The notes beneath the pieces are model-generated. The model saw only the letters and a list, made by a program, of their open reading frames with translations. It ran no database searches and had not been told where the DNA came from. Positions 20,153 to 25,181 of a stretch of DNA of 64,000 nt are shown one piece after another (the stretch's first letter is position 1; each line of letters opens with the position of its first letter). The position numbers were made by a program, and so were the translations under genes. Source of the DNA: Phascolarctobacterium sp. ET69 (GTDB lineage: Bacteria > Bacillota > Negativicutes > Acidaminococcales > Acidaminococcaceae); contig NZ_JAMBLR010000002.1 in assembly GCF_023336935.1 (NCBI RefSeq), positions 248,001 to 312,000 on the forward strand, in the 5' to 3' direction.

Positions 20153-20233
20153 TTGTTTTTACAGAAATTTGTCTAATACATACGGCACAAAATCCACTAA
20201 ATTTTCAGAAAATAAAAACATTTACCTGAAGGC

Positions 20234-20262
20234 TTTACAAAATGTGTAAAGGGGGCTATAAT
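20234..20262 (+). promoter_or_regulatory. Promoter of glnN
   Basis: TTTACA (20234-20239), 17 bp, TATAAT (20257-20262). A start near 20269 would put the attenuator at the very 5' end of the transcript. Confidence 0.7.
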
Positions 20263-20270
20263 TACAGCAT

Positions 20271-20322
20271 AAGCAACAGCGAAGTTGCAGAACCATTTAA
20301 ACTTCGCGCGTTGCTTTTTTTA
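20271..20322 (+). promoter_or_regulatory. Attenuator in the glnN leader: terminator versus hexaloop hairpin
   Basis: A strong terminator is formed by AAGCAAC/GTTGCTT (20271-20277, 20310-20316) and GCGAAGTT/AACTTCGC (20279-20286, 20300-20307), followed by a T run, only 30 bp before glnN. An exclusive alternative hairpin GCAAC-AGCGAA-GTTGC (20273-20288) uses the same bases. Its six-base loop AGCGAA has A at position 1 and G at position 4, the rule for RNA hairpins bound by ANTAR antiterminators. Those normally bind two such hairpins; only one is seen here. Confidence 0.6.
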
Positions 20323-20352
20323 TTTTGTTTTTATTTTGAGGGGGACTAAAAA

Positions 20353-22434: not shown

Positions 22435-22460
22435 AACCGAATTTGAGTTTTGCTGCACAA

Positions 22461-22500
22461 CGGGGTGTATCTTAAAAGGTACACCCCGCTTTTGTTTTAG
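22461..22500 (+). terminator. Terminator between glnN and amt
   Basis: 9-bp arms CGGGGTGTA (22461-22469) and TACACCCCG (22480-22488), then CTTTTGTTTT. No promoter was recognised between it and amt, so amt may depend on readthrough or an unseen promoter. Confidence 0.85.
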
Positions 22501-22520: not shown

Positions 22521-23921
22521 ATGAGGGGATTAATACATGGTTTACTGGCGGCAGGCGTGCTTTTGGGCATTCCGGGCACGGTGCTTGCCGCAGAAGGAGC
22601 GCCGGCAGTTGATACCGGCGACACGGCGTGGGTATTGATAAGTGCTGCGCTTGTAATGCTGATGACACCGGGGCTGGCGTTTTTTTACGGCGGCATGGTG
22701 CGCAGCAAAAACGTACTGACGACAATTATGCAGAGCTTTTTTATTGTGGCAATGGTAAGCGTGCAGTGGGTGCTGTTCGGCTTCAGCCTTGCCTTCGGGC
22801 CGGATATTAACGGCGTTATCGGCAGCTTGAGCTGGGCAGGGCTTACCGATATGGCGCTTTTTGCCGCTCCTTACGAAGATTATTCCGCAACGGTGCCGCT
22901 GTTTGCCTTTGCGGCATTCCAGTGCATGTTTGCGGTAATTACGGCGGCGCTTATTACCGGCGCTTACGCCGAACGCTTTAAATTTGGCGCGTTTGTGCTG
23001 TTTACCTTTTTGTGGACTACGTTTTTGTACGACCCCATGGCGCACTGGGTATGGGGCGTTGGCGGCTGGCTGCGCGATTTAGGCGCGCTCGATTTTGCGG
23101 GCGGCACGGTTATTCATATTTTAAGCGGCGTCAGCGGTTTGGTAGCCTGCATTATGCTTGGCAAACGCAGCGGCAAGGGTGTTGTGCCCATGCTGCCGCA
23201 CCATTTGCCGATGACGGTGCTGGGCGCAGCACTTTTGTGGTTCGGCTGGTTCGGCTTTAACGCAGGCAGCGCGCTTGGCGCTAACGGCCTTGCAGCCGGT
23301 GCGTTTGTGGTAACGCAGGCAGCGGCGGCAGCGGCAACCTTATCGTGGGTTGGCGCAGAATGGCTTGTAAACGGGCACCCCACCATGCTTGGCGCAGCAA
23401 GCGGCTGCATTGCCGGGCTTGTTGCCATTACCCCGGCGGCAGGCTTTGTAACTGTTGTGCCGGCCGTTTTAATCGGGCTTATCGGCGGCGTGCTGTGCTT
23501 TGCGGCAGTGGCCATTGTTAAGGCAAAACTCGGGTACGACGACGCACTTGACGCATTCGGCGTACACGGCGTTGGCGGCACCTGGGGCGCACTGGCAACC
23601 GGGCTTTGGGCAACAAAAACCGCAAACTCCGCCGGTGCGGACGGGCTTTTTTACGGCAACGCGCACCAGCTGTATGTACAGGCGGTAACGGTAGTGGTTG
23701 CCATTGTGCTGGCCGTTGTTGGCACCTACATAATTTTAAAAATAGTGGGCGCAGTTACAACCCTGCGTGCTGATGCTGCCGAAGAAGAAAGCGGGCTTGA
23801 CATTGTTGAACACGGCGAACGCGCTTACCGCCAGAGCATTATAAACGGCACGCCGCTTACTAACCTTGCCGTGCAGGAAGCACCGGCCTTTGCCGCCAAA
23901 CCGGCACCGGCGGGCAAATAA
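22521..23921 (+). CDS. amt: Ammonium transporter
   Basis: 466 residues: a signal-like first helix (LIHGLLAAGVLLGIPGTVLA) followed by eleven membrane segments. FFYGGMVRSKNVL is the Amt family start. The two pore histidines lie in DPMAHWVWG and FGVHGVGGTWGAL. It conducts ammonium under nitrogen limitation and is normally blocked by PII. glnB follows 15 bp downstream, the standard amt-glnB pair. Confidence 0.97.
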   Translation: MRGLIHGLLAAGVLLGIPGTVLAAEGAPAVDTGDTAWVLISAALVMLMTPGLAFFYGGMVRSKNVLTTIMQSFFIVAMVSVQWVLFGFSLAFGPDINGVIGSLSWAGLTDMALFAAPYEDYSATVPLFAFAAFQCMFAVITAALITGAYAERFKFGAFVLFTFLWTTFLYDPMAHWVWGVGGWLRDLGALDFAGGTVIHILSGVSGLVACIMLGKRSGKGVVPMLPHHLPMTVLGAALLWFGWFGFNAGSALGANGLAAGAFVVTQAAAAAATLSWVGAEWLVNGHPTMLGAASGCIAGLVAITPAAGFVTVVPAVLIGLIGGVLCFAAVAIVKAKLGYDDALDAFGVHGVGGTWGALATGLWATKTANSAGADGLFYGNAHQLYVQAVTVVVAIVLAVVGTYIILKIVGAVTTLRADAAEEESGLDIVEHGERAYRQSIINGTPLTNLAVQEAPAFAAKPAPAGK

Positions 23922-23936
23922 TTTACGGAGGCAGTT

Positions 23937-24299
23937 ATGAGACCGATTACCAAAATAGATATTATAACCAGAACCGAAAAACTGGACGAACTGAAAGTTG
24001 CTTTTGCGGAAATTGGCGTTACCGGCATGACGGTAAGCCAGGTGTTTGGCTGCGGTTTGCAGAAGGGGCATAAGGAAGTGTACCGCGGGCAGGCTTACGA
24101 TATTAACCTTGTGCCGAAGGTTAAAATAGAAACCGTTGTCTGCGAAGTCCCTGTGGACGAAGTTTTGCGCGTAGCCCAGAAAGTCCTTAAAACCGGTCAG
24201 CCCGGCGACGGCAAAATCTTTATCTACCCGCTGGCCAATGCAGTTAAAATCCGCACCGGCGAACAGGGCGAGGCAGCCATTATCGACGACCATAAATGA
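23937..24299 (+). CDS. glnB: Nitrogen regulatory protein PII
   Basis: 120 residues. It senses 2-oxoglutarate and ATP/ADP and controls Amt. The T-loop reads QKGHKEVYRGQAYDINLVPK; Y54 corresponds to the tyrosine uridylylated in enterobacterial PII. The B-loop TGQPGDGKIF and the C-terminal RTGEQGEAAI follow. The sequence around Y54 (AYDINLV) departs from the classic EYMVDFL, so modification is uncertain. GGAGG precedes the ATG. The stop codon touches repeat R2 copy A. Confidence 0.95.
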   Translation: MRPITKIDIITRTEKLDELKVAFAEIGVTGMTVSQVFGCGLQKGHKEVYRGQAYDINLVPKVKIETVVCEVPVDEVLRVAQKVLKTGQPGDGKIFIYPLANAVKIRTGEQGEAAIIDDHK

Positions 24300-24806: not shown

Positions 24807-25181
24807 ATGAACCTTTTATACATCGCCGTTGGGGGCGCGTTTGGCGCAGTGCTGCGTTACCTTGCAGGTAATGCCGCCGTAAAATATTTTAACCCGCAGC
24901 TGCCGTACGGAACTTTTATTATTAACATCAGCGGCTGCTTTTTAATGGGGCTTTTGATGACGCTGATTGTGGATAAAGGCCTTCTGCCGCCGGTTTGGCG
25001 TTTGTTTTTGTGTGTAGGTGTTTTGGGCGGGTTTACCACGTTTTCATCCTTCGGGTATGAAGTATATACGCTTTTTGCGGAAGGAAACCTTGCCTGCGCT
25101 TTGTTATACGCAGCGTTAAGCTGCCTTTTGGGCGTGCTTGCGGCGGCTTTCGGTGTTTTGGCAGTAAAAATTTTAATATAG
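24807..25181 (+). CDS. crcB: Fluoride ion channel CrcB/FluC
   Basis: 124 residues, four membrane helices, normal length for a homodimeric Fluc channel. Signatures are VGGAFGAVLRYLAG, YGTFIINISGCFLMG with the conserved Asn, and GGFTTFSSFGYE with the phenylalanines lining the pore. It exports fluoride to protect enolase and other enzymes. Single gene between R2 copy B and a terminator. Confidence 0.95.
   Translation: MNLLYIAVGGAFGAVLRYLAGNAAVKYFNPQLPYGTFIINISGCFLMGLLMTLIVDKGLLPPVWRLFLCVGVLGGFTTFSSFGYEVYTLFAEGNLACALLYAALSCLLGVLAAAFGVLAVKILI

Follow-up and report, generated by a model that had tools for sequence, protein, structure and literature searches.

A probable ANTAR-dependent transcription attenuator with a single hexaloop in the glnN leader of Phascolarctobacterium sp. 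ET69

In Phascolarctobacterium sp. ET69, glnN encodes a type III glutamine synthetase (GSIII) and is preceded by a short leader that can fold into a hairpin with an ANTAR-type hexaloop. The locus raises the question whether one hexaloop, rather than two, can make a leader an ANTAR-dependent transcription attenuator. The analysis of a 64-kb stretch of the genome that contains glnN (64,000 nucleotides, hereafter referred to as the window), of the remainder of the genome and of GSIII leaders from other Bacillota makes this reading of the glnN leader probable, at roughly 0.83.

A first-pass annotation had described a good promoter, followed by a leader in which either the hairpin GCAAC-AGCGAA-GTTGC or a strong terminator forms from the same bases. 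Folding analysis agreed with the mutual exclusion of these structures (Table 1). The promoter matched the consensus at 11 of 12 positions and, based on this consensus, transcription is predicted to start near position 20269. The stem of the hexaloop hairpin (GCAAC/GTTGC) begins 10 nt past the -10 box and encloses the loop AGCGAA (20278-20283), with A at position 1 (A1) and G at position 4 (G4). Its predicted folding energy was -4.7 kcal/mol. The bases of this hairpin also constitute the 5' arm of the terminator, whose whole stem (-19.0 kcal/mol) is followed by seven T residues. Minimum free energy (MFE) of the leader was -22.6 kcal/mol (z -3.5), a stability equalled by none of 200 shuffled sequences. 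Folding of the growing transcript predicted presence of the hexaloop from approximately nt 20 to nt 38 and dominance of the terminator from nt 41, so that the hexaloop would have about 20 nt of synthesis before competition sets in. A perfect inverted repeat, CTTTACAAAATGTGTAAAG (20232-20250), spans the -35 box of the glnN promoter; it is retained within the genus, absent in other genera and a possible operator for a second regulator.

Table 1. Coordinates of features at the glnN locus (window numbering) and of loci with a switch-linked non-coding RNA in other genomes.
Feature	Position	Strand	Remarks
Sigma-70-type promoter, TTTACA-17-TATAAT	20234..20262	+	consensus match; spacing from -10 box to stem kept in relatives
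Intrinsic terminator, mutually exclusive with hexaloop	20271..20321	+	arms 20272-20286 and 20300-20315, then U-run
Single ANTAR-type hexaloop hairpin (putative antiterminator)	20273..20288	+	conserved in relatives
glnN, type III glutamine synthetase, 693 aa	20353..22434	+	Pfam GSIII_N, Gln-synt_C
Second single hexaloop, TGCAC/AACGGG/GTGTA (A1, G4), glnN-amtB gap	22454..22469	+	same element in relatives
Terminator overlapping second hexaloop	22461..22494	+	arms 22461-22471 and 22478-22488; U-run; MFE z -4.4
amtB, ammonium transporter	22521..23921	+	PF00909; downstream in presumed operon
P-II nitrogen regulatory protein gene	23937..24299	+	PF00543; downstream in presumed operon
Non-coding RNA loci	L176, L177, L179, L180, L181, L184, L174, L178; e.g. 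G014:C1:159510-159665		

A full site description, consisting of A1, G4, a C-G-closed stem of at least five pairs and an overlapping terminator, matched three times in the window, as compared to a mean of 0.5 and a maximum of 3 in 60 dinucleotide shuffles. These matches were located in the glnN leader, in the gap between glnN and amtB and, at 24848, within an open reading frame; the last of these was rejected as probably due to chance. Window counts alone are not fully sufficient, and exclusion of chance for the glnN site is based on comparative evidence. When the organism's own genome was searched for further sites by model and by pattern, a second R1 match (C3:237829, E 0.6) was rejected because it lay in or near coding sequence and the layout was absent. 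The pattern CAACRNNGNNGTTG, with 28 matches versus 14 for a reversed control, was too unspecific.

Comparative evidence was first sought close to the window's genome, where a family search identified glnN in 30 of 61 genomes. A near set of 29 GSIII leaders from the family and class, from which one marginal match of 30 was left out, was scanned for six-base-loop hairpins overlapping a terminator, which were collected blind to the letters of the loop. Such a hairpin was present in 28 of the 29 leaders. Conservation of the hexaloop bases in related glnN leaders had been named in the first-pass annotation as a refuting test; the diagnostic positions 1 and 4 were kept and positions 3, 5 and 6 vary freely. 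Its proposed hallmark of A1 plus G4 stood with respect to G4 only, position 1 being a purine: 33 of 34 near sites combined G4 with a purine at position 1 (22 A, 11 G), and other species of the same genus carry the loops GACGAA or GACGAG, in which position 1 is G and G4 is kept. Other families of the class contributed two leaders (L028 and L030), with GAGTC or GGGTC as stem. Within the family alignment the hexaloop stem varies too little for its covariation to be informative, differences being seen only across groups. The outer stem of the terminator carries compensatory changes at four pairs, with a covariation score that was reached by none of 500 shuffles.

The same blind scan was applied to a distant set of 79 GSIII leaders from Lachnospiraceae, Oscillospiraceae, Ruminococcus and others, and yielded 51 sites in 39 leaders, 47 of which had A1 and G4. 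In this set, control scans with five- and seven-base loops gave 6 and 9 sites, respectively, versus 51 for loops of six; for both sets, these control lengths yielded 5-9 sites per set versus 51 and 34. The layout in these distant leaders was like that in the window: TTGACA-17-TATAAT, an immediate hexaloop, a small hairpin and a terminator. Among 69 distinct sites G4 was invariant, position 1 was A in 62 and G in 7, position 2 was mostly A, and positions 3, 5 and 6 were free. The closing pair was always C-G and pairs 2-4 occurred as A-U, G-C, C-G, G-U and U-A; since these 69 sites were selected for pairing, and the amtB sites among them also for purine 1 and G4, stem pairing across groups is not independent evidence, and blind selection applies to the loop statistics of the leader scan only. 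A predicted single-hexaloop switch precedes glnN in many gut and rumen Bacillota.

These comparisons bear on the possibility that the window's leader is unregulated, its terminator being constitutive and its hairpin fortuitous. Terminator-like inverted repeats do yield many small alternative hairpins. Conservation against chance of loop length six and of letters 1 and 4, while the other loop letters change, as well as the compensatory changes in the terminator stem, leave this possibility a negligible probability.

Some leaders hold additional elements. A single gene is preceded by two full hexaloop-terminator switches, one after the other, at L011, L013, L100, L108, L132, L137, L139, L145, L154 and L165. 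The second tandem switch in genus g17, GTGC-AACGAA-GCAC, is located about 115 nt 3' in L011 and about 90 nt 3' in L013. Longer glnN leaders (L011, L013, L016, L018, L020) show an extra hairpin, GGGGTTAC...GTAACCC, between the switch and the glnN start. A GAGGGG loop like that of this hairpin was also seen at G000:C3:14912 and in a non-coding RNA discussed below.

Search of the genome for an ANTAR response regulator had been set beforehand as a refuting test of the first-pass annotation. The genome (1.88 Mb, 11 contigs) was found to encode exactly one ANTAR domain (PF03861), in a 193-aa REC-ANTAR protein whose gene is located directly 3' of a HisKA_2 histidine kinase gene. The ANTAR domain scored 77.6 bits, as compared to a curated cut-off of 27.3, and the Response_reg domain 91.3 bits. 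Best matches among solved structures were Rv1626 (1s8n, E 1e-59) and EutV (6wsh, E 7.6e-44), with the latter alignment spanning the full length. Four residues of EutV that contact the hexaloop, Arg142, Lys149, Glu160 and Tyr164 (PMC8934654), have identical counterparts in the REC-ANTAR protein when it is aligned to 6wsh_A, with an inferred offset of 2 between the numbering of that chain and that of the publication. The kinase-ANTAR pair is not close to glnN in this genome.

A classic dual-hexaloop ANTAR site, the first hairpin of which was missed, for example because transcription starts farther upstream, would be in line with the two hairpins found in all experimentally studied antitermination targets (PMC3369931, PMC8934654) and with the occurrence, in some distant leaders, of two hexaloops 65-80 nt apart. 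However, where a promoter could be recognised (60 leaders), the distance from the -10 box to the start of the stem was 7-15 nt in 55 leaders, 17-22 nt in four and 31 nt in one. With a transcription start about 7 nt past the -10 box, the 7-15 nt spacing leaves no room for a first hairpin, which bears out the earlier view that only one hexaloop is visible and that the transcript is too short for another. A second A1/G4 hairpin 5-16 nt upstream was found in none of 80 distant leaders, and the glnN-amtB gap, in which there is room for a first hairpin, lacks a conserved one. The paired hexaloops in distant leaders were ruled out as P1 and P2 because each has its own terminator, which identifies them as tandem switches. 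The CTTTACAAAATGTGTAAAG palindrome was also rejected as a first hairpin: it has no hexaloop, lies 5' of the predicted start and is not kept beyond the genus. A missed first hairpin is therefore unlikely. Held against the published dual-hexaloop definition (PMC3369931), the glnN leader shows the A1/G4 hexaloop and the mutual exclusion with a terminator, and has one hairpin where two are defined; it is thus a variant, not a member, of the published class of ANTAR antiterminators.

For EutV and eutP, antitermination in vivo depends on the first hairpin; in the systems studied both hairpins were needed, and an altered linker length broke induction (PMC3369931). A single hexaloop should consequently fail, unless protein or kinetics differ. 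The EutV-RNA structure shows one dimer on one hexaloop, by which the minimal binding site was redefined as one hexaloop; the first hairpin was kept as a time-gaining recruitment site for antitermination in vivo, and the same 2022 paper raised the question where single-hexaloop sites occur (PMC8934654). Most glnN-type leaders contain a small non-hexaloop hairpin between the hexaloop and the 3' arm of the terminator, at the top of the latter, in place of which the window's glnN leader has a similarly long unpaired stretch. By delaying the 3' arm, such an extra hairpin may buy time and thereby replace the first hairpin. This proposal fails for the amtB-type site, in which the terminator 3' arm follows the hexaloop closely.

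In the proposed single-hexaloop mechanism, RNA polymerase would start about 4 nt 5' of the hexaloop hairpin, which would emerge before any other structure and is predicted to remain folded until approximately nt 38. The active two-component ANTAR regulator, presumably phosphorylated by the adjoining HisKA_2 kinase, would bind the loop through its position-1 purine and G4. The bound hairpin would be held, so that the terminator's 5' arm is blocked and glnN is transcribed; with no protein bound, the terminator would form at nt 41-47 and transcription would stop. Binding, activation and phosphorylation by the kinase, read-through as the bound, active state and nitrogen shortage as the signal are steps that we infer. 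ANTAR proteins may also bind a hexaloop and promote termination, or be titrated by it, and EutX/rli55 and mycobacterial targets indeed need not be antiterminators (PMC8934654). For the glnN leader such a role is improbable: because hairpin and terminator exclude each other, stabilisation of the hairpin should favour read-through, and the sites precede genes for biosynthesis and uptake, a placement shared with known antitermination.

An ANTAR gene was present in 28 of 28 sampled genomes with a hexaloop leader versus 14 of 22 without one (50 genomes, p 0.0006), and glnN and ANTAR genes were jointly absent from genera g12 and g15 of the family (37 genomes, p 0.0006, ancestry uncorrected); both p-values are optimistic, since relatives share ancestry and sequence counts are not independent. 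When three borderline leaders were moved to the positive class, the first comparison became 31 of 31 versus 11 of 19. At nine distant loci, all with hexaloop leaders (L104, L108, L116, L117, L121, L123, L125, L143, L168), an ANTAR gene is located 5' of glnN, on the opposite strand and within 4 kb. Genus g16 (L080:4792-5376) encodes, divergently from glnN, an ANTAR protein that has diverged strongly and in which no receiver domain was convincingly matched; genomes of this genus also retain an ordinary ANTAR regulator. Genus g13 has its kinase-ANTAR pair clustered with glmS, glnN, carBA, purF and an amtB-PII fusion, with single-hexaloop switches before glmS (GCAAC-AAAGAC-GTTGT), purF (TGTC-AAAGCA-GACA) and amtB (AGAC-ATCGGC-GTCT).

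An RNA element that serves another factor, be it an antiterminator protein of another kind or a metabolite sensed by the RNA itself, deserves consideration because leader switches of nitrogen genes in other phyla include riboswitches. Against it, neither the window nor any of 12 distant loci contained an Rfam family scoring above the gathering threshold, an aptamer would require a larger element, the conserved letters coincide exactly with those of ANTAR sites, and the element tracks ANTAR genes. Another factor is hence very unlikely. Of the two options left by the first-pass annotation, a minimal ANTAR version or a different antiterminator, leader conservation and the association with ANTAR genes favour the former. 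Sequence and comparison establish the anatomy of the leader and its conservation, the presence of only one hexaloop, and the link of the element to ANTAR genes and to nitrogen genes.

The second hexaloop in the window, for which the same gap carries the same element in approximately 18 relatives, would constitute a second switch, controlling the genes for the transporter and P-II. Some amtB-type sites have G at position 1.

Single-hexaloop switches were additionally observed before a gene for an LL-diaminopimelate/aspartate-type aminotransferase (L186, G028:C21:63872-63929) and 5' of glmS (L175, G033:C24:2651-2703). These sites suggest a wider amino-nitrogen regulon. In genera g8, g10 and g17, the glnN-leader model identified a switch directly 5' of a non-coding RNA that is conserved and about 130-180 nt long, and a sequence related to this RNA occurs in genus g6. 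The RNA has its own terminator, the core AAGCGGCCAAATGAGGGGA and a closing stem GCGTGAC/GTCACGC, and often adjoins purC. It has no Rfam match, and no copy was found in the window's own genome. Its position downstream of a single-hexaloop switch makes it a candidate ANTAR-controlled small RNA.

The closest known system is the dual-hexaloop EutV system of the Enterococcus faecalis eut genes (Ramesh et al. 2012, PMC3369931; 6WW6, PMC8934654), which shares with the glnN switch an A1/G4 hexaloop with a C-G closing pair, overlap with an intrinsic terminator, a REC-ANTAR protein with a HisKA_2-type kinase, and nitrogen-related genes. The eutP P1 and glnN hexaloops even have the same A-U/C-G top pairs. 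In contrast, eutP has two hairpins, separated by a 5-12 nt linker and both needed in vivo, while glnN has one at the 5' end of the transcript, in glnN-type leaders usually followed by the small non-hexaloop hairpin atop the terminator. The NasR-nasF and AmiR-amiE leaders likewise combine ANTAR antitermination, which for glnN is predicted, with nitrogen-acquisition genes, but both have P1 and P2 (PMC3369936). Covariance-based ANTAR target families have also been described for Actinobacteria (PMC8164766) and Mycobacteria; the searches and the curation behind these required two stem-loops, and many of the targets overlap ribosome binding sites instead of terminators. In contrast to the two-component pair of the glnN system, NasR contains a NIT sensor domain, and AmiR a pseudo-receiver. 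A NitR-type ANTAR regulator adjoins glnA of Clostridium saccharobutylicum, another link between ANTAR and glutamine synthetase in Bacillota, with a different type of the enzyme.

ANTAR target searches in the open-access literature demanded two stem-loops (PMC3369931, PMC8164766). We lean towards the view that the leaders represent a widespread ANTAR class of Bacillota, undescribed in that literature, in which one hexaloop at +1 is enough and which would control GSIII, amtB, glmS, purF and a small RNA. If true, such a class would overturn the rule that a moving polymerase needs a first 'recruitment' hairpin. The glnN leaders provide abundant natural single-hexaloop sites at a gene central to nitrogen assimilation in bacteria of the rumen and gut, and make it testable whether one hexaloop is sufficient and whether a delay hairpin can take the place of P1. 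Since covariance searches for two hairpins would miss single-hexaloop leaders, ANTAR regulons in Bacillota are probably underestimated.
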